Shown: positions 29,003 to 39,422 of the stretch, piece after piece
Numbering within the stretch: position 1 is the first letter of the stretch
How the letters are laid out: each line of letters opens with the position of its first letter
DNA from: Gracilinema caldarium DSM 7334
GTDB lineage: Bacteria > Spirochaetota > Spirochaetia > Treponematales > Breznakiellaceae
Assembly (NCBI RefSeq): GCF_000219725.1
Contig: NC_015732.1
Location: 3,168,972-3,232,971 of the forward strand
Length of the DNA: 64,000 nt
Direction: 5' to 3'
Notes under the pieces: model-generated
The model's input: only the letters and a program-made list of their open reading frames with translations
What the model was told of the DNA's origin: nothing
Databases searched by the model: none
Position numbers and translations under genes: made by a program

Positions 29003-29737
29003 ATGAATATATCCCTTGAACTCGTGCCCCGGGATACACAGGCCGTCACCGAGGGCCTTGCGGTAGTTTCCCGCTATCCCGATATCAGCCTCATCAATAT
29101 CCCGGACTTGCTCCGTTTCCCCATCCGTTCATGGCAAGCCTGCACCCTTATTCCGCCGCAGTACCATACCATACCCCATCTGCGGGCCATCGATTTTAAT
29201 CTCGAAGAACCCTTTCCCCTGACCGCATATTTTAAAGAACACCATATTGATACGGTGCTGGTTGTTGCCGGCGACCCGCCCCAGGATATGAAACACCGGG
29301 TGTACCCTACCCACACCACGGATTTCATCAAAAAATTAAAACTAGAGATGCCACAGCTCACCATTTACGCCGCCTTTGACCCCTATCGCTCCAATATCCG
29401 CTATGAACTGGATTATCTCAATGCAAAGGAAGACAGCGGTGCCGACGGTTTCATGAGCCAGCCCTTTTTTGATGTACGGCTCCTGGAGATTTATGCCGAA
29501 TACCTGGAGGGCCGCAGGGTCTTTTGGGGTGTATCACCGGTGCTGTCGGAAAAAAGCCGCAACTACTGGGAAGCCCGCAACAGAGCTATCTTTCCCCGTT
29601 CCTTCCGGCCGGACCTGCACTGGAACATCAGCTTTGGCCGGCAGGTCCTGCAGTTCTGCAAAACCCATCACTTTGATCTCTACCTCATGCCCATCAAGGT
29701 CGATCTGGATACCTACCTGCAGGGCCTGTTCAGTTAA
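29003..29737 (+). CDS. Short methylenetetrahydrofolate reductase-like protein
   Basis: The 244-aa protein has the MetF barrel pattern: SLELVPRD at the start, VLVVAGDPPQD with the YPTHTTDFIKKL segment, and SGADGFMSQPFFDVRLLEIY, matching the usual GADxxxTQxFF strand. It is about 50 residues shorter than E. coli MetF. It would make 5-methyl-THF for MetH, which is encoded nearby on the other strand. A divergent MetF-like role is also possible. It lies in an operon with the thioesterase and overlaps the convergent radical-SAM gene by 8 bp. Confidence 0.75.
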   Translation: MNISLELVPRDTQAVTEGLAVVSRYPDISLINIPDLLRFPIRSWQACTLIPPQYHTIPHLRAIDFNLEEPFPLTAYFKEHHIDTVLVVAGDPPQDMKHRVYPTHTTDFIKKLKLEMPQLTIYAAFDPYRSNIRYELDYLNAKEDSGADGFMSQPFFDVRLLEIYAEYLEGRRVFWGVSPVLSEKSRNYWEARNRAIFPRSFRPDLHWNISFGRQVLQFCKTHHFDLYLMPIKVDLDTYLQGLFS

Positions 29738-31158
29738 AAACTATCCAGTTCTCAAGGGCCTGCCGCAGGGCACTGCGGTCTATGCCCCAATTTTTACCAA
29801 AACGGCGCAATAAAAAGCGGGATAGTTCGATAAAGGCTTCAAAGGCATTACCCTGTTCCGGAATAAGCCGGGGAAGCAGGTCTTCAAAATGCCCCCGATT
29901 TACAATGAGCTCCCAGAAACGGGCAAAGTTCTTTACCTCATCCAGTTCCGATCGGGAAAAGCTCCCCGTTTCCAGCACTTCGTAGGGAGGCTGGTCCACA
30001 TAGTGCATCCCAAAGGGCCCATCATGACGGGCAATGGGTGTGCCGGGGAGCTTTTTCAGAATCCCCAGCTGAATTTCACCGGGCCGAACCTGCCAGAGCT
30101 GGTTAAAACTCCTTGCAAAACTTTCCAGCGTTTCTCCCGGGAGACCTGCAATAAGGTCCGCATGAACAATCGCCTGGGTCTTTTCTCTCAGGAACCGTAA
30201 AGCTTCCTGTTCCTTTTCAGGATTGCTGGGCCGCCCAATTGTTCGAGCCACCTCAGGAGTAAAGGTTTGAATACCCACCTCAAGCCGCAGGGTACCCGCT
30301 GGGAACTGCTCTAAAAGGGTCCTCAAACGGTCAGGAAACCGGGAGGGGACCATTTCAAAATGCACATATCCCGGCGGTTTTATTCGTTCAAGGAAAAAAC
30401 GAAGAATCTGCTCTGCCCGCTCATAGTCGAGGTTAAAGGTCCGGTCAAGGAATTTAAAAGACCGCCCCCCCCCGAGCAAGAAGTTCTTCCATATCAGATA
30501 AAAAGTCACCCAGGGGAAATTCCCGTACACGCCGGTCCAGAGAGCTCAGGCAAAATTCACAGCCAAAGGGACAGCCCCGAGAGGCTTCTACATAGATGAG
30601 TTTTCTCGAGATATCCTCATCGGTATAGAGGTGATAAGCTGTCTTTATGTCCGACAAAACTACAGGCTTTGCGATAATCCATTTCCCTTCTATGACACCA
30701 TAGGGTTCGAGGGCATCGAGCGGCCTTCCAAGCAGGAGGTGCTCACAGAGCAGTCGAAACACCGCTTCTCCCTCTCCGCGGACAATCCAGTCAGCTTTGC
30801 GCACCAGCGGCGCATCTTCCGGCAGATAGGAAACTTCTGGACCGCCCAGGACCACCACCGGCTTCGTCCAGCCCGGTCCTCCCCGGGTCCTTGCCCCAGA
30901 CCAGTAGGTTTCCAGCTCTTCGAGCAACGCAAGTGTCGCCTCATGGTTCCAGATAGAAACAGAGAGGGCAAGGACCCGGGGCGCCGCCTCAACAAGAGGG
31001 GCGACCTTTTCTTCCAAAGGCTGCCGCAGGGCAAATTCGAAGATCCGGCTCCGTTCAGCCAAGGGGCCCAAATTCGCCTGTAACAGGCGCAATGCGAGAG
31101 ATGGATGTATCCACTTCGCATTGATGGTTGCAAGAACAATATCGGCCATACAAGACAT
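29730..31158 (-). pseudogene. B12-binding radical SAM protein (DUF4080-type), frameshifted at a G9 tract
   Basis: Two overlapping frames make one protein. The first (from ATG 31156-31158) has the B12-binding domain (VLATINAKWIHPSLALRLLQ, VVLGGPEVSY) and the radical-SAM cysteines EASRGCPFGCEFCLSS. It runs out after EELLARGGAVF. The second continues from RSFKFLDRTFNLDYERA to the C-terminal DUF4080-like domain. The break lies in nine consecutive C (plus strand, 30465-30473); eight would restore the frame exactly. The cause may be mutation, slippage or a sequencing error. The start overlaps the upstream stop as TGATG. The substrate is unknown. Confidence 0.85.
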
Positions 31159-31784
31159 CAGCGGGGAAAACTGGAAGCCCCAAAGAGATTCAGCGTACCG
31201 GTACGCCATTCATCATAGGCTTCCATCACCAGCCGTTCCACATCCTGCCAGGTATCGGCCCGAGGACCCGGAAGTTGCAGATTGGTAGAATTGGAAAACA
31301 CAATAGTGCGGCATCCCTGTTCCCGCAGGCGCTCCACATTGCTTGGGGAATCATCAATATAGACATGGGCTCCGACGGCTCCCTTATCCTTCATGAAGCA
31401 GAGATCCCAGTAGGGGATATCATGGGCGTCGAGCCACTCCACGGTCTGAGTAATGGAGGTTTTATGAAAATATTTTAAAAAAAGCCGGTGGGTGATAATC
31501 CGAATCCGGATACCCCGAACTGAAAGCTTCCTGAGGGTCGCCGGGGCATCCTTTATGGGCTTCATCACCCGAAAGAGGTCCCGCTGGGTAACGGCAAAGC
31601 GGTGCAGCCGGTCATATCCCCCGTACTCATCAATACCCCATTCATGAAGCCCGAAGGAAACCTCTTTTTTAAGACTTTCAAGGGGCCGGTCGAGCCATTC
31701 GGCGGCTATTTCCCGCATGGCACCATAAAAATCTCCGACCACGCCGTCTAGGTCTACGCCAAGGATAAAACTACTCTCATCCAT
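31158..31784 (-). CDS. HAD-family 5'-nucleotidase-like protein (NT5C type)
   Basis: The 208-aa protein begins LGVDLDGVVGDFYGAMREIA, the Asp-X-Asp nucleophile motif of the deoxy-5'(3')-nucleotidase group (PF06941). IRIITHRLF supplies motif II, and VYIDDSPSNVERLREQGC is the motif IV region with acidic metal ligands. It probably removes phosphate from nucleotides or a related metabolite. It is the middle gene between the ABC ATPase (17 bp) and the radical-SAM gene (1-bp overlap). Confidence 0.8.
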   Translation of the reverse strand: MDESSFILGVDLDGVVGDFYGAMREIAAEWLDRPLESLKKEVSFGLHEWGIDEYGGYDRLHRFAVTQRDLFRVMKPIKDAPATLRKLSVRGIRIRIITHRLFLKYFHKTSITQTVEWLDAHDIPYWDLCFMKDKGAVGAHVYIDDSPSNVERLREQGCRTIVFSNSTNLQLPGPRADTWQDVERLVMEAYDEWRTGTLNLFGASSFPR

Positions 31785-31801: not shown

Positions 31802-32653
31802 TTAGTTAGTCCCCGGTTCACCCTGCTGTTGAGATGCACCTTGGCTCGTTTCTTCTTGCTTTTGCGATACAAGCAGGTCATATTCTTCTTCAAGTTTTTT
31901 CCGATCCAGATATTCCTTTTGTTTCAGCATCGCTGCAGGAACCCCATAGGCTTCTTCTAGATGGGACGGAGTCAAGAGTTCCGCAGGACTTCCCATATCA
32001 ATTGACCGGTCTTTTTTAAAGAGGAGCACCGTTTCGGCATACTTCTTGGTGAGATCCAGTTCATGGAGGGACACATAGATGGTCACCCCCGTAGCTTTCT
32101 GATAGGATCGGAAAAAGTCGAGGGCCGCTTCCTTTTGCCGATCTTCCATTGCAAACACAGGCTCATCCATAAAAAGTGACCGGGATCCGTAAAGTGCAGA
32201 AAAGGCAAGAAGGGTCCGCTGCATTTCACCCTTGGAAAGCCGGGCCAGGGGCCGAGTAAGAAGCCCTGTCAACTCAAAGACCGAGAGTACCTCTTTGTAA
32301 AAGTCGTCCCCTTTCAGGGCATGAAAACCGCCAGCATAGATCTGCTCAAGGAGCTGTCCCAGAGGATCTTCGGTTTCGAATTCCATATTTTGATATATGA
32401 ACGATGCATAGGCATTCCGTTCATCCTCGCTGACAAAAAGCCGGGTATCTCGCCCCAGTAAGCTTATGGTTCCTTCCTGAGGGAGCAGCCGCCCTGCTGC
32501 AAGAAGCATCAGGGTTGATTTACCAGCCCCATTAGGCCCTACGAGGCTCACAAAGCCCGAGGGTAAGGTTGCTGAAAAGCCGGAAAATATCGGTTCAGCC
32601 GATTCCGGGTACTGGAATCGCACCTGGTGAAACACAGAAAATCCATTACTCAT
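31802..32653 (-). CDS. ABC transporter ATPase, single domain
   Basis: The 283-aa protein has Walker [11 protein letters not shown], signature LSKGEMQR, Walker B SLFMDEP and the His switch in YVSLHELD. It resembles FepC/metal-type ATPases, with an extra charged, Gln-rich tail of about 40 residues. No permease is adjacent, so the partner is unknown. The start has no ribosome site; TAGAAT ends 6 nt upstream. Confidence 0.85.
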   Translation of the reverse strand: MSNGFSVFHQVRFQYPESAEPIFSGFSATLPSGFVSLVGPNGAGKSTLMLLAAGRLLPQEGTISLLGRDTRLFVSEDERNAYASFIYQNMEFETEDPLGQLLEQIYAGGFHALKGDDFYKEVLSVFELTGLLTRPLARLSKGEMQRTLLAFSALYGSRSLFMDEPVFAMEDRQKEAALDFFRSYQKATGVTIYVSLHELDLTKKYAETVLLFKKDRSIDMGSPAELLTPSHLEEAYGVPAAMLKQKEYLDRKKLEEEYDLLVSQKQEETSQGASQQQGEPGTN

Positions 32654-32659
32654 AACAAT

Positions 32660-32665
32660 ATTCTA
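32660..32665 (-). promoter_or_regulatory. -10 box (TAGAAT) 6 nt before the ABC ATPase ATG
   Basis: TAGAAT on the minus strand, 6 nt, ATG. There is no Shine-Dalgarno sequence. Confidence 0.4.
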
Positions 32666-32711
32666 GCATGAAGGACCTTCTTATCCTATACTTTTATAAA
32701 GAAGGGTAAGG

Positions 32712-33797
32712 ATGATGAAACACTTCATGTTAAGACTGATGACAGTCCTATGTATGACATTTTTAACGAGCTGTATTCAGCCTTCGATACAAGTCGCCCT
32801 CCTTACGAAGCTCGATGCCGGTTCTATCATTGGAACCAGCGAAATCGCTGCAGTAAAAGAGTTTGAGAGGACCCATCCCAATAGCCGTATACAGATTATC
32901 CCCTTCGATGATGGATGGGATCCGGAACGGACAAAACAGGCCTATAAAGAAGTTCAAAACATGAATATCCAGTTCCTAATAACCAGTCACACCTCAACCT
33001 GTGCCATAGAGATCGCCAAAGATATCAATCTAGATAAACGACTTACCATTATCGCCGGAGCGACCACCACAGTTTTAAGCGATAAGGATGATTATATCCT
33101 GCGCATCATTCCCGATTTGAACCAAGAACAGGCTGTGATTGCTCAAAAAATAAGCTCATTACAACCAAAAAAACTACTCATCATTCGGGATCTTTCTAAT
33201 TCCGGGTATACCATACCCGCACAGGAAGCCTTTTTAACAGAATTGAACCGTGTATCGCCAAACATAACAGTTCGCACCTTTGACTTCGACGCAAACCAGT
33301 TCAATATAGAGGAGCTGGATCCTGTACTACAGGCTGAGATTTTTAATGTCCTGTACCTGCTTATTGGGGGTTATAAAAATATTGCAGGCAACATTGCCCA
33401 ATATAGTTATCAATTCCAGCCTCAAAGTACCATTGTCTTTACTCCCTGGATGCACAATAGAGAGCTAGTGAATTCCGCTGGGCCTGCAATCAACCATGCT
33501 CTGCTTCCCTCGCTTTTTCCTTCTCGAAAAATAGATCCTAAAATAGAAGCATACATGTCCGCACTTGAAACCAATTTTCATGTAAGTCCGACTATTATTA
33601 GCCTCAAAGTTTACCAGGCTCTCGAACTTCTCGATCAAGCATTTAAAGCCAAAGCGGTGACACCCGATCAGGCAAAAAAATGGCTTCTTTCCAAAAAAAT
33701 TTTATCAACCCGACTGGGGACTATCACCTTTAATGCTTTCGGTGAAACAATAGAAGATTATTACTTTATCACCGATATTTCAGGAGAATTTCATTGA
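32712..33797 (+). CDS. Periplasmic ligand-binding lipoprotein (Peripla_BP_6-like), sensor partner
   Basis: The 361-aa protein has a lipoprotein signal (MLRLMTVLCMTFLTSC, Cys 21) and a two-lobe ABC-type receptor fold. KFLITSHTSTCAIEI-like and KKLLIIRDLSNSGYT patches resemble branched-chain amino-acid-type binding proteins. Its stop overlaps the start of a histidine kinase (TGATG), and no transporter genes follow. It is therefore probably a sensory binding protein feeding the kinase, as LuxP feeds LuxQ. The ligand is unknown. AAGGG lies 5 nt before the ATG. Confidence 0.75.
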   Translation: MMKHFMLRLMTVLCMTFLTSCIQPSIQVALLTKLDAGSIIGTSEIAAVKEFERTHPNSRIQIIPFDDGWDPERTKQAYKEVQNMNIQFLITSHTSTCAIEIAKDINLDKRLTIIAGATTTVLSDKDDYILRIIPDLNQEQAVIAQKISSLQPKKLLIIRDLSNSGYTIPAQEAFLTELNRVSPNITVRTFDFDANQFNIEELDPVLQAEIFNVLYLLIGGYKNIAGNIAQYSYQFQPQSTIVFTPWMHNRELVNSAGPAINHALLPSLFPSRKIDPKIEAYMSALETNFHVSPTIISLKVYQALELLDQAFKAKAVTPDQAKKWLLSKKILSTRLGTITFNAFGETIEDYYFITDISGEFH

Positions 33798-35785
33798 TGA
33801 AAAAGCCCCAGAGTCTCCGATTTTATCTAGTAACACTCGAAATAATAACTATTTTCCTGGGGATACTGTTTATCTTTGGTTCCTTTAATTTTATACAATT
33901 AAAAATCTCTCAGGATTTTTCACAACGGAGAAAAGCAGAACTATCGGCCATAGAAATGCTCTTTTATTCAAAATTACAACAGGCAGTTACTACTCTTGAA
34001 TCTTTGGCTGCTTCCGACACCTTATTGGGGGCACAATTTATTAGTGAATTTTCAGATATGTATATTATTTCGGATAATACAATTACCCACATACTTAAAA
34101 AAAGTCCCCAATCAGCCCTGTTCACCGGCTTTCAATTTTCACAAAATCTTACTTCGTTTTTTTCTTATCATTTTTTTACTACTGTACGAAAATCCAAGGT
34201 GTTCTATGCTCCAGAAGACGAGAAACCAAGCATTTATCTTTCAATCCCTATACATCAGGATTTACTGGTAGGACGCCTTAAAATTGATTCGATCAATAAC
34301 GATATAGCCCGGCTTGTTCAGTTCGATGGATCTATTGTGGTGATAACCAATTCAGACGGTATACCTTTTTCAAGCATAGGTGGAAATTTACCTAGTCTCA
34401 TTCTAAATCAGCCTAATGGTTCTGCACTCACTATAAATCAAAAACAATTTGTTTTAAATCGAATTTCAAGTGTCTGGCTTTCTACAGATATTGTATTACT
34501 TACTCCAACCAATCAACTCCAATACTTTTTTTCTCAAATTCAAATCCTCACTTTATTTACTTTAACAGCAATTATTGGTCTCCTCTTCTTAAGATTTTTC
34601 TTACTACATTGGTTACTTATCAAGCCAATCGAACAATTTATTAAAGCATTAAATCAATGGGAAAGTTCCCATAATCTTCCGGAAGTACCTGTAAGTATTC
34701 AGGGAGTAACAGAAATACAACTCTTGGCAAAAACTTTTTATAATAAAGCACAGGAAATAACCAAAATGAATGAAAAACTTGAAAAGCAGGTACATGATAT
34801 GGGCGAGCAACTTGCAACTGCATTGGATAAGGTTTTGGTTTCAGAAAAGCTCGCTGTTCTTGGAAATCTTACCGCAGGACTGGCCCATGAATTAAATACG
34901 CCTTTAGGAGCTATAATATCTACTGCAGAAACTATAAAAAATGCGATTTCTAGAATAAAACAGGATCTTTGTAATCTTTTAACTAAAAACGATCCTGAGG
35001 AAAATAATTTTTTTATTCAATTATTAGATGCTTCTGGAAAAACCAAAGCAAGTCTTCGCGAGCGAATGACCTTTATCAACACTATTGAATTAAAACCAAT
35101 ATCAAATGCAGAAGAAATTGCTGATGATCTTATTGATATGGAAATATCTCTGAAGGATCAGAAACTAACACAAAAAATATTAACGCTTAAACAAGCACCA
35201 AATATTATTAAAACAGCCTATTATTTTAATATTTTAGAAAAGGACAATGCTATTATTCAGAATGCGGCTGAACGGGCATCTTTGACCCTTAAGGCTCTAA
35301 AACAATGGACCTATGAAGAAAAGGGGTATGCTGTTCCAGTATGTATTAAAAATGAAATGGAAACCATCCTTACCATGTACTATAACCATACAAAATATAC
35401 TATTCAGATAATACGTAATTTTCTCGATGAAGGATGGGTTTTAGCAAACCCAGAACGACTAAATGCCGTATGGGTAAACCTCATCAACAATGCCCTGCAA
35501 GCCATGGAACAGGGTGGAACTTTAACGATACAAATCAAAAAACTACATCATGAAAGTGATATAATTCAGGTTCAAGTAACCGATACTGGTATAGGGATTC
35601 CTGAAGAGAATAAACCTAAAATTTTTACTCCTTTCTTCACGACAAAACCTCGAGGTACCGGAACTGGGATTGGTCTAGATCTCAGCAAGCGAATTATTGA
35701 AGGATTTTCCGGAACCATATCCTTTACCAGTGAGCCTGGACATACTACTTTTACGGTAACCTTACCTGCTTACATAACTGAATAG
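33797..35785 (+). CDS. Membrane sensor histidine kinase
   Basis: The 662-aa protein has a membrane helix near residues 12-34, a periplasmic sensor domain of about 210 residues, a second helix near 250-275, and a HAMP-like linker with coiled coil. The dimerisation motif LTAGLAHELNTPLGAI places the phospho-acceptor at His364. About 190 residues follow before the N-box NLINNALQAME (Asn564/565), longer than usual; then DTGIGIPEENKPKIF, FFTTKPRGTGTGIGL complete the ATPase domain. No response regulator is next to it. It is translationally coupled to the lipoprotein. Confidence 0.9.
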   Translation: MKKPQSLRFYLVTLEIITIFLGILFIFGSFNFIQLKISQDFSQRRKAELSAIEMLFYSKLQQAVTTLESLAASDTLLGAQFISEFSDMYIISDNTITHILKKSPQSALFTGFQFSQNLTSFFSYHFFTTVRKSKVFYAPEDEKPSIYLSIPIHQDLLVGRLKIDSINNDIARLVQFDGSIVVITNSDGIPFSSIGGNLPSLILNQPNGSALTINQKQFVLNRISSVWLSTDIVLLTPTNQLQYFFSQIQILTLFTLTAIIGLLFLRFFLLHWLLIKPIEQFIKALNQWESSHNLPEVPVSIQGVTEIQLLAKTFYNKAQEITKMNEKLEKQVHDMGEQLATALDKVLVSEKLAVLGNLTAGLAHELNTPLGAIISTAETIKNAISRIKQDLCNLLTKNDPEENNFFIQLLDASGKTKASLRERMTFINTIELKPISNAEEIADDLIDMEISLKDQKLTQKILTLKQAPNIIKTAYYFNILEKDNAIIQNAAERASLTLKALKQWTYEEKGYAVPVCIKNEMETILTMYYNHTKYTIQIIRNFLDEGWVLANPERLNAVWVNLINNALQAMEQGGTLTIQIKKLHHESDIIQVQVTDTGIGIPEENKPKIFTPFFTTKPRGTGTGIGLDLSKRIIEGFSGTISFTSEPGHTTFTVTLPAYITE

Positions 35786-35812: not shown

Positions 35813-37966
35813 CTATATCCATTTAGACATGAGAATAACCGTTGTTCGTTCATGAACATAATAATCTTTTTGGGATGAGATTGCCTGTTCAAGCCCGGGA
35901 TGTACTATATCTTCTGGAGATGGGCGACTTGTGTCCACCACTCGGAACCATTTTTTCCCCTTGGGGGCTTCTGCAATAGTAAAGAGACAGCCTTCTTTGC
36001 TCGCATTGAACATGATATAAAAATCATTATCATCTCGATCGGCAAAGGTGTCCGCTTTACTACCATCTAGCCGATATGCTAAACGTTTATCAATCTTTGC
36101 CCAATCGGGGCTATTACCATGTTCATCGAACCAAGTAATATCAGGGATAGCATTATAATCACCATCTTTGCCAGTAAAAAACTCAGGACGTAAAAATGCC
36201 GGGTGTTTTATTCTGAATGCAAGCATTTCCTTCACAAAGCGGAAAAAATCCCGATTTTTATCGAGCAGTTTCCAATCATACCAGGAAATCTCATTGTCCT
36301 GACAGTAGGCATTGTTATTTCCCCGTTGGGTCCGACCTATTTCATCACCTCCTAAAAGCATCGGAGTACCCAACGAAATCATAAGGGTAGTTATAAAGTT
36401 ACGCATCTGCCTAAAGCGGATTGTTTCAATAGCTGGATTTTCTGTAGGTCCCTCAAAACCATAGTTGCAACTGAAATTTGCCCCATGACCATCCCGGTTT
36501 TCTTCTCCATTTTCTTCGTTATGCTTTTCTGCATAGGACACCAAATCTCGAAGAGTAAATCCATCATGACTTGTCACAAAATTGATAGAATGGAAGGGTT
36601 TTCTACCATCCCGGAGATAAAGATCCGAACTACCGGAAAGCCGGGTCGCAAAATGCCTGGCCTCGTAAGCATCACCCCGCCAGAATTTTCGTACATCATC
36701 TCGGTACCGATCATTCCATTCTGCCCAGCGGCCTCCAGGAAACCATCCTACCTGGTATGCACCTCCTGCATCCCAGGCTTCTGCTATAATTTTTGTATTT
36801 CGGAGGACAGGATCCTCTGCAATCCGTTCAAGCATGGGTGGGTTCTCCATAAGATGTCCCTGCTGGTTTCTACCTAATATGGAACCAAGATCAAAGCGGA
36901 ATCCATCTACATGCATTTCAATTACCCAATAACGCAGACAATCTAAAATAAAGGTACGTACCACCGGGTGATTACAGTTTAAGGTATTACCACAACCGGA
37001 GTAGTTTTTATAATATCGTTTATTTTCATCAAGCATGTAATAGATCGTATTGTCGATCCCCCGAAATGAAAAGGTTGGCCCCAGTTCATTTCCTTCGGCA
37101 GTATGATTAAAGACTATATCAAGAATAACCTCGATACCTGCCCGATGTAAGGCCTTTACCATTTCTTTAAATTCTCGAACCTGCGCACCAGGAGTCCGGT
37201 CGGCAGAATAGGATCCTTTCGGAGCAAAAAAGGCCACCGTAGAATAACCCCAATAATTTTTTAATGGTTCCCCAGTCCGAGGATTTATTCGGGGGATTTC
37301 TTGCTCATTGAATTCCTGAATTGGCATAAGTTCAAGACTGGTTATCCAAAGTTCCTTAAAATAGGGTATTTTTTCTATGACACCCCGATACGTTCCTGGG
37401 TGCTCCACTCCAGAACTTGGATGCATGGTAAGTCCCTTTACATGGGTTTCATATAACACGCTAAACCTTAAGGGATAGTTAAGGGGCTTATCCCCTTCCC
37501 AGTTAAAAGTATCATCGATAACAATACATTTCGGCTGGTAAGGTGCATCATCTTCATACGAAAAGGAGAGGTCAGCATCGGGCATATTAGGGTTATAGCC
37601 CATACATTTTGTCAGATCCCAATTTGATAAATCCGTTAATGCCTTTGCGTAAGGATCGATAAGCGTTTTATTCGAATTAAAACGAAAGCCCTTTTCTGGT
37701 AAGTAAGGGCCATCAACTCGATAGAGATATAAAGCTCCTGCTGCAAGTCCCCGTACATGACAGTGCCAGATGTCACCGGTCCGATTTTTATGGGGGTCCA
37801 GAATAATTTCTTCTATAGGCTCAGTAGTATCTGGATCTTCAAAAAGTACTAAGGATACAGCAGTAGCATGTCGAGAAAAAAGAGAAAAATTAACCCCTGT
37901 ACTGGTAATTTCTGTACCCAGGGGTAGGGGTTTACCGTTTTCTATGCTATATTGGAGTTTAGCCAT
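35813..37966 (-). CDS. glgX: Glycogen debranching enzyme GlgX
   Basis: The 717-aa GH13 (isoamylase-like) enzyme has an N-terminal CBM48-type domain (PLPLGTEITSTGVNFSLFSR) and the catalytic barrel. Motifs are DIVFNHTAEG, VDGFRFDLGSILGR (nucleophile Asp), IIAEAWDAGG (acid Glu) and FVTSHDGFTL. It cleaves alpha-1,6 branches left after glycogen phosphorylase, which is encoded at the left end of the window. TATTAT lies 6 nt before the ATG. Confidence 0.95.
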   Translation of the reverse strand: MAKLQYSIENGKPLPLGTEITSTGVNFSLFSRHATAVSLVLFEDPDTTEPIEEIILDPHKNRTGDIWHCHVRGLAAGALYLYRVDGPYLPEKGFRFNSNKTLIDPYAKALTDLSNWDLTKCMGYNPNMPDADLSFSYEDDAPYQPKCIVIDDTFNWEGDKPLNYPLRFSVLYETHVKGLTMHPSSGVEHPGTYRGVIEKIPYFKELWITSLELMPIQEFNEQEIPRINPRTGEPLKNYWGYSTVAFFAPKGSYSADRTPGAQVREFKEMVKALHRAGIEVILDIVFNHTAEGNELGPTFSFRGIDNTIYYMLDENKRYYKNYSGCGNTLNCNHPVVRTFILDCLRYWVIEMHVDGFRFDLGSILGRNQQGHLMENPPMLERIAEDPVLRNTKIIAEAWDAGGAYQVGWFPGGRWAEWNDRYRDDVRKFWRGDAYEARHFATRLSGSSDLYLRDGRKPFHSINFVTSHDGFTLRDLVSYAEKHNEENGEENRDGHGANFSCNYGFEGPTENPAIETIRFRQMRNFITTLMISLGTPMLLGGDEIGRTQRGNNNAYCQDNEISWYDWKLLDKNRDFFRFVKEMLAFRIKHPAFLRPEFFTGKDGDYNAIPDITWFDEHGNSPDWAKIDKRLAYRLDGSKADTFADRDDNDFYIMFNASKEGCLFTIAEAPKGKKWFRVVDTSRPSPEDIVHPGLEQAISSQKDYYVHERTTVILMSKWI

Positions 37967-38033: not shown

Positions 38034-39422
38034 ATGTTTCGAGTACCAGTTATTACCAAAGATATTGAACTGATAGAACAAATCCAATCAGCTGCTTATA
38101 CCTTACAAACAAATCTGCAGCCCGTGTTTATCTCTGGTGTAGAACCTGTACTCGAATATTTAAAATATGAACTACCTGAACTGAAAATTCTTGATTTTTG
38201 TGGGGAAGGGCCATGTAAAGATGCGGCTATCGCAATACTCGAAGCAATTAAAGAAGACCCTTGGCTTCACTACGGCGGACTCATTGTTATTCATACTATA
38301 GAAAATGATAAAGAATTAGCTGAACATCTTCATGAATCAAATATTATTGCGGTTATTCACAAAAGTGAATTTAGAAACAACTGTGAGCGACTCCTTCGTA
38401 TCCTTGCCCATAACAAACAATTCCTCTTTCAACGGGGTATGCAACAACATTTGCTGAGAACTATTTCTGGGACTTTTATTATTGATAATGATCCCCTGGA
38501 TATTGTGGTATACACCAATTTGGTTACGAATTATCTATATAACGCAAACCTAGTAAACCGGGATGACCGGGAAAAACTCCATGTAGCATTACAAGAGCTT
38601 TTAGTAAATGCTATTGAACATGGTAATTGTAAAATTAGCTTTGACGAAAAGTCAGCTTGGCTAGAAAAAGGCAAGAATGCCATGGAGCTTATCCGAGAAA
38701 AAAACAAGGACCCAAATATTTCTGCAAAAAAGGTTCGTCTTTCATATACGATCCGCCCTGACAAATCTACCTTTACAATAACCGATGACGGCGATGGTTT
38801 TGATTGGCGAAGTAGAATGAATGCAAAACCAACTCTTGGGCTTCATGGTATGGGAATTCGAATGGCTGGTGTCTATGTGCAGGATTTGTCTTATAATGAT
38901 AAAGGGAACGAGGTGCGTTTTTCGATTAATCATCAAAAAGATGCAAGCAATATGGTTCCTCGTATATTTAGCGATCAGGAGGAAGTCCATTTTAAAGTCA
39001 AGGAAATTGTTGTTCGGGAAGGAGATACTTCGGACTACCTGTACTATATTGTTTCAGGCAGGTATCTTGTTTTCTCTGGAAACCGCTGTGTTTCTTATTT
39101 AACTCCCGATGATATGTTTATCGGGGAAATGTCCTTTTTACTTTCAAACCAGAGGACTGCTACAGTTGTTGCTAAGGATGGAGGAACCTGCATTAAAGTG
39201 TCGAAACAGGACTTCGTGGACCTTATAAAGCGAAATCCCCACTATGGTATCTTCCTGGCACGACTCCTTGCCCAACGGCTTACCCGACTGAACGCACGAA
39301 CGGTAAAACTGAATGCAGAATATATGAAAGTAAAAGAGGAACTAAAACAGTTAAAAGCCCTTTCAGCTACTGAGAAGACTCAAGAACCGGTTGGATCATA
39401 CGGGCCTGACGAAATTGGTTAA
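38034..39422 (+). CDS. Receiver-like / HATPase / cyclic-nucleotide-binding fusion protein
   Basis: This 462-aa protein joins three parts. Residues 1-130 resemble a response-regulator receiver (central strand KILDFCGEG) but lack a clear acidic pocket. Residues about 150-300 form an RsbW/SpoIIAB-type ATPase: ELLVNAIEHGNCKI (N-box), ITDDGDGFDW (G1) and LGLHGMGI (G2). Residues about 315-435 form a CRP-like cyclic-nucleotide fold with FIGEMSFLLSNQRTATVV, then a coiled-coil tail. The layout suggests a switch kinase tuned by a small molecule or by the receiver. GAGGGG precedes the ATG. The 3' end overlaps the convergent gene by 56 bp. Confidence 0.8.
   Translation: MFRVPVITKDIELIEQIQSAAYTLQTNLQPVFISGVEPVLEYLKYELPELKILDFCGEGPCKDAAIAILEAIKEDPWLHYGGLIVIHTIENDKELAEHLHESNIIAVIHKSEFRNNCERLLRILAHNKQFLFQRGMQQHLLRTISGTFIIDNDPLDIVVYTNLVTNYLYNANLVNRDDREKLHVALQELLVNAIEHGNCKISFDEKSAWLEKGKNAMELIREKNKDPNISAKKVRLSYTIRPDKSTFTITDDGDGFDWRSRMNAKPTLGLHGMGIRMAGVYVQDLSYNDKGNEVRFSINHQKDASNMVPRIFSDQEEVHFKVKEIVVREGDTSDYLYYIVSGRYLVFSGNRCVSYLTPDDMFIGEMSFLLSNQRTATVVAKDGGTCIKVSKQDFVDLIKRNPHYGIFLARLLAQRLTRLNARTVKLNAEYMKVKEELKQLKALSATEKTQEPVGSYGPDEIG

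Follow-up and report, generated by a model that had tools for sequence, protein, structure and literature searches.

In the LuxP–LuxQ system a periplasmic type-I binding protein acts on a membrane histidine kinase encoded alongside it, and in TorT–TorS the loaded binding protein activates the kinase. CuaD–CuaS–CuaR and XylFII–LytS are three-component systems that, according to one source (PMC10384115), combine a stand-alone binding protein (a lipoprotein in the case of CuaD) with an adjacent sensor kinase; CuaSR is encoded next to cuaD, and the ligands are sugars. A 2022 paper (PMC9602780) describes BctC–BctE, in which the loaded binding protein activates the kinase and BctC serves transport too, and counts only about ten binding-protein/kinase couples as characterised. 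A further source (PMC11113362) states that in 10 of 11 characterised couples the two genes are neighbours. Here we describe two genes at positions 32712–35785 of a 64,000-nucleotide stretch of Gracilinema caldarium DSM 7334 (contig NC_015732.1, positions 3,168,972 to 3,232,971; the window), which encode a binding-protein lipoprotein and a histidine kinase. We put at about 80% the probability that they form one signalling unit, a solute-binding-protein-dependent sensor kinase that would work in a LuxPQ-like manner without being a homologue of LuxPQ.

Overlapping receptor and kinase genes and their relatives

The open reading frame at 32712–33797 (plus strand) encodes a receptor lipoprotein of 361 residues, a Peripla_BP_6 or LivJ-type solute-binding protein by Pfam and homology, with a lipoprotein signal peptide running up to the lipobox Cys21 (LTSC; 32712–32774). 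The Pfam search (E ≤ 0.1) returned Peripla_BP_6 (E 1.5e-12) and ANF_receptor and nothing else, and the closest proteins in fold and sequence are leucine- and Leu/Ile/Val-binding proteins. The second frame (33797–35785, plus strand) encodes a sensor histidine kinase of 662 residues with two transmembrane segments. Its N-terminal sensor module (residues 1–275; 33797–34621) consists of the first transmembrane segment, an extracytoplasmic region that is dCache-like by profile homology and a weak Pfam match, and the second transmembrane segment. The transmitter contains a partial HisKA match and a HATPase_c domain (E 2.2e-25; residues 551–658, 35447–35770), with the phosphoacceptor His364 in the motif AHELNTP (34886–34888), the N-box at residues 561–565 (Asn561 and Asn565; 35477–35491), the D-box (G1) at D596 and G2 at G622–626. 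It is most similar to the AtoS/ZraS kinases.

The preliminary description of this locus had reported that a TGATG overlap joins the two genes, and the coordinates hold: the receptor stop TGA (33795–33797) and the kinase start ATG (33797–33799) have one base in common within 33795–33799. An AGGAG sequence inside the receptor gene (33782–33786) may serve the kinase as a ribosome-binding site, and translation might alternatively begin at an in-frame TTG at 33794. An overlap of 1 to 4 bases between the two frames also occurs in four relatives (L005, L006, L007, L061; we number loci with L and genomes with G), and the kinase start of L005 would be TTG.

A receptor profile (A10) was built from the five closest receptors and searched against 296 Spirochaetota genomes with a cut-off of E ≤ 1e-25. 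The results showed 23 receptor places in 22 genomes. The contexts of all 23 were inspected (the window, L061 of G014, 20 fetched regions and L171), and a co-directional kinase lies directly downstream of the receptor at 22 of them (the window, G014, 19 of the 20 fetched regions and L171), although in L158 and L167 it reads as two overlapping frames. A plasmid search with the receptor gave four records with about 20% identity only. Our literature search, which covered titles and abstract openings and is not proof of absence, found neither the receptor–kinase family nor the kinase insert described below named anywhere.

The lipoprotein might instead be an ordinary LivJ-type transport protein that uses a LivHMGF permease encoded elsewhere, with the adjacent kinase sensing alone. 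The fold relationship noted above fits this idea, and so do the two complete Liv-type transporters of the source genome (L073, L074), which account for two of its four Peripla_BP_6 proteins over the cut-off. Each Liv operon, however, has its own binding protein, and the other two Peripla_BP_6 proteins have kinases instead: the window receptor, and that of a second pair at 2.73 Mb (L069), whose kinase is of the dCache-HisKA_2 type. More such second pairs are present in G014 (L072) and G016 (L070, L071). LivH/LivM profiles built in this analysis found no permease at any of 26 receptor loci (L151–L171, L005–L007, L061 and the window; flank lengths vary and some contigs are short), whereas they did recover both Liv loci of the source genome as well as 9 of the 12 LivJ-like loci used as controls. 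The whole window also lacks a LivH/LivM-like permease by profile search, in line with the earlier statement that neither a permease nor a response regulator adjoins the pair; the divergent neighbour is a stand-alone ABC ATPase, not a permease. Homologous loci at which a transporter replaces the kinase, which the preliminary description had named as evidence against its proposal, were not seen. Since a kinase stands beside 22 of the 23 homologues and the acidic pocket residue of the transporter-type relatives is missing as well, transport through a borrowed permease is very improbable. A receptor-coupled kinase without a transporter of its own is well supported by gene order and homology.

The kinases themselves differ in their transmitters. 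Downstream kinases were found at 20 of the loci L151–L171, and 18 of these (all except L167 and L169) were scanned with Pfam. Three types emerged: (i) seven HisKA-HATPase-receiver hybrids that also contain PAS domains (L151, L159, L164, L165, L166, L168, L170), (ii) nine HisKA_2 kinases, the majority of which have GAF or PAS domains (L152, L153, L154, L155, L156, L157, L158, L161, L171), and (iii) two kinases (L160, L162) whose insert matches that of the window (E 2e-27 and 1e-29). A sensor profile made from kinase residues 1–275 of the window clade only nevertheless matched, in a one-pass search, L160 and L162, the hybrids L151 and L159 and all eight HisKA_2 kinases tested, with E-values of 1e-22 to 1e-35; among unrelated kinases four gave E above 0.6 (the fifth was not reported). 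The match was weak for the hybrids L164, L165 and L166 and for L169. Thus, one sensor is shared by swapped transmitters. Receptor and sensor distances of the 23 pairs correlate with r = 0.93, a value reached in 0 of 2000 permutations, but this mirror-tree comparison was not corrected for the species tree, and shared species history contributes to it.

That contribution weighs against a single conserved unit, as do several other points. L163 is the sole receptor place without a kinase neighbour. The sensor profile was not significant for L170 (E 0.037) and L168 (E 7.4), and the most divergent hybrids were joined only in an iterated search, which also took in the second pairs. The receptor model is poor, with a mean predicted local distance difference test (pLDDT) score of 62.8. 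Finally, gene neighbourhood alone is no proof, because in P. aeruginosa the binding proteins encoded close to AgtS and AruS yielded no evidence that they activate these kinases (PMC11113362).

If the two genes do form one unit, the lipoprotein would be anchored in the envelope, and its two-lobed pocket would take up a small molecule. The loaded lipoprotein would dock on the kinase's extracytoplasmic portion, docking would alter autophosphorylation on His364, and the phosphate would pass to a response regulator encoded elsewhere; we infer the sign of this regulation, as we do the docking, the ligand class and the identity of the regulator. The receptor and the sensor domain would constitute a conserved front end to which three transmitters are attached: HisKA with the insert, hybrid HisKA-receiver, and HisKA_2.

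The receptor pocket

Across the 23 aligned receptors eight positions never vary, namely the lipobox Cys, Ser95, Asp126, Asp127, Arg131, Asn163, Gly219 and Trp246. Residue 245 aligns with Glu226 of E. coli LivJ, which we take to contact the amino group of the ligand. In the window receptor Pro245-Trp246 (33444–33449) stands in place of the acidic residue of transporter-linked relatives. In alignment A7, all seven transporter-type proteins have Asp at the ligand-amine position, whereas in all nine kinase-linked receptors this position is occupied by Pro, Gly, Ala or Met and the next one by Trp, so that the acid-to-neutral plus Trp change separates 9/9 from 0/7; a two-residue gap lies near residue 246, and the exact Trp pairing could move by one. 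Residues 244–247 of the window receptor include no acidic residue, and neither does the equivalent segment of the kinase-linked L069–L072. Because the acidic pocket residue is lost and the Trp is fixed, the alignment suggests that the ligand is not bound through an alpha-amino group, as an alpha-amino acid would be, and might be a small or aromatic carboxylate. The signature distinguishes sensing receptors from transport proteins independently of gene context. These statements rest on the sequence alignment and not on the receptor model, since the model gave good E-values against LivJ-type proteins but a TM-score of only about 0.4 and a root-mean-square deviation of about 12.

The conserved pocket also bears on the possibility that the kinase binds the ligand itself via its dCache-like domain and that the lipoprotein does no more than increase its sensitivity or modulate it, as proposed for CuaD/CuaS. 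The window kinase has a dCache_1 match (E 0.0027, below the cut-off), and several paired kinases score above 40 bits (L070, L071, L072, L171). In R. cellulolyticum, CuaDSR and CuaSR both perceive cellobiose, CuaDSR better (PMC10384115). Conservation of the pocket residues and Trp246 across deep divergence, however, suggests that the main specificity lies in the receptor, and we regard direct binding by the kinase as unlikely, though it is the strongest of the competing explanations.

The kinase insert and candidate outputs

The spacing between His364 and the N-box Asn is 201 residues in the window kinase, compared with 112–152 in five kinases without the insert. The HisKA match ends at residue 388 and covers 29 of 66 positions, and this is not the ordinary short-loop hairpin of the dimerisation/phosphoacceptor (DHp) domain. 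About 90 extra residues lie within the hairpin. The insert itself (approximately residues 399–466; 34991–35194) would form four short helices (400–414, 420–432, 438–447 and 454–463) between DHp helices 351–398 and 467–505. The AlphaFold model that predicts them is weak overall (mean pLDDT 54.8) and moderate in the insert region, where ten-residue blocks score 61 to 79. Kinase model residues 354–661 superpose on solved kinases with Z about 20, a comparison that says nothing on the fold of the insert alone.

The preliminary description had put this distance at about 190 residues, far more than usual. The unusual length was borne out, but other kinases share it. An insert-only profile found 63 places in 27 of the 296 Spirochaetota genomes, and the spacing is 204 to 208 in the 22 of 28 fetched spirochaete kinases in which both motifs were pattern-matched, the remaining six not being measured. 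Long spacings were also found in Leptospira (211), four Dyadobacter kinases (213), Nostoc (213), Deinococcus (212) and Paraburkholderia (211), although among these the insert profile itself matched Leptospira, Dyadobacter and Nostoc only. Two actinobacterial sequences are similar by look but were missed by the spacing pattern. By measured spacing, kinases with the insert are thus present in five phyla, or six when Actinomycetota is counted, and the long spacing marks an unnamed kinase class that is widespread.

Pfam (E ≤ 1) gave unrelated single-member matches to the insert only, and the insert profile found nothing convincing among solved structures (best E 0.032, an archaeal PolB1-binding protein). 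An insert that occurs in several phyla therefore has no Pfam model or solved structure that we could find. Identity with a known dimerisation domain, which the preliminary description had likewise named as evidence against its proposal, was not borne out by either search, yet the insert does interrupt the dimerisation/phosphoacceptor hairpin itself. In HK853 the end of this hairpin is near the response-regulator docking site, and because of that position one may reasonably guess that the insert has a part in selecting the partner or in controlling phosphatase activity.

A broader reading is that a Spirochaetota-wide front end, consisting of a LivJ-derived lipoprotein that gave up amino-acid binding, has been co-inherited with one sensor domain and recombined onto three transmitters, one of them an undescribed multi-phylum kinase class with a conserved four-helix DHp insert at the regulator-docking end that could control partner selection or the phosphatase reaction. 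We hold this tentatively and rate its chances as slightly less than even.

Kinases of the insert class also occur in other gene contexts. In G097 (C66; L065 18–2535) a gene for an SBP_bac_3 binding protein precedes and overlaps that for a kinase with the window-type insert, so that by gene order a second binding-protein family is paired with the class. In L114 and L115 (Streptomyces and Tsukamurella plasmids) and L111 (Deinococcus) an insert-type kinase directly follows a gene for an FAD-dependent oxidoreductase, apparently a recurring redox-linked context, and in both actinobacteria a UBP-type zinc finger gene follows the kinase.

No receiver domain was found anywhere in the window, and the kinase domain has none within 58 kb. 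The genome has 13 receiver matches without a HATPase_c within 5 kb, and ten of the proteins behind them, which were scanned, comprise two sigma-54 activators, one receiver-SpoIIE protein, one helix-turn-helix receiver, two cyclic di-GMP enzymes and four proteins that are essentially receiver only. Since the transmitter resembles AtoS and ZraS, whose partners are sigma-54 activators, our guess is that the two sigma-54 activators (L117 and L124) are the first candidate response regulators.

The output could also be something other than a DNA-binding regulator, namely a stand-alone CheY-like or SpoIIE-type regulator or the protein encoded at 38034–39422 (plus strand). The latter has cNMP-binding and HATPase_c_2 domains and an N-terminus that is receiver-like by eye, with Asp54 kept, and its gene lies two genes from the pair in five genomes (the window, L005–L007 and G014). 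Against it, its N-terminus gives no Response_reg match, the receiver Thr and Lys are not kept across relatives, and a homologue occurs in G016, where the pair is absent at that site; we rejected it as a dedicated adjacent regulator. At other loci, a CheY-like receiver gene follows the HisKA_2 kinase in L155, and in one genus a similarly starting gene follows the hybrid kinase (L166 220–2484, L168 275–2539, L169 270–2534), the L166 copy being a HAMP-SpoIIE phosphatase, which hints at a partner-switching output. For the window kinase we find such outputs improbable, slightly more so than direct ligand binding by the kinase.

Flanking genes and comparison with known systems

The pair lies antisense between two minus-strand genes, a stand-alone ABC ATPase gene on the divergent side (31802–32653) and a gene for a GlgX-like isoamylase-type enzyme on the convergent side (35813–37966). 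The gene order is identical in three further Gracilinema loci and in G014, which belongs to another genus. The isoamylase-type and ATPase genes adjoin in G016 and are separated by 12 bases in G033, with neither receptor nor kinase between them in either genome. Because the flanking genes adjoin without the pair, receptor and kinase genes are, on this comparison, gained or lost together as a unit; the pair breaks up a co-directional couple, and gain in the Gracilinema/G014 line is therefore a simpler reading than loss elsewhere. The ATPase was rejected as a component of the unit, as it and the isoamylase-type gene occur together without the pair in these two genomes.

In the divergent intergenic region (32654–32711) the segments TTCTAGCATGAA and TCCTATACTT are retained in Gracilinema and G014 and are possibly back-to-back promoters; promoter and terminator scans gave chance level only. 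Farther upstream, two overlapping minus-strand frames (29730–30530 and 30454–31209; radical SAM/DUF4080 and B12-binding) correspond to a single open reading frame of 465–478 residues in L005, L006, L007 and L061, and either the gene is frameshifted in the window or the sequence contains an error.

The proposal of a LuxPQ-like sensing unit survives as regards a receptor–kinase unit without its own transporter, but only as an analogy. LuxQ, a hybrid kinase, has a dedicated periplasmic domain and a C-terminal receiver, neither of which was matched in the window kinase (Pfam E ≤ 0.1), and LuxP belongs to another binding-protein family, which we take to be Peripla_BP_4. Homology to LuxPQ was rejected on the Pfam content of both proteins. 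The family offers more than twenty natural pairs whose sequences are matched, outputs swapped among three types and a signature predicted for the ligand class, and the specificity between receptor and kinase should therefore be testable by exchange.

As in LuxP–LuxQ, a binding protein and a membrane histidine kinase are encoded side by side, but here the binding protein is a Peripla_BP_6 lipoprotein and the kinase has a weak dCache region and no receiver, although some relatives are hybrids. The pair resembles CuaDSR and XylFII–LytS in having a stand-alone binding protein beside a sensor kinase, and differs from them in its LivJ-type protein and in the lack of an adjacent regulator. Unlike BctC–BctE, it has no accompanying transporter. 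LivJ and LivK belong to the same fold and sequence family as the window receptor, which differs from them in its genetic context, in the loss of the acidic ligand residue and in the gain of Trp246.

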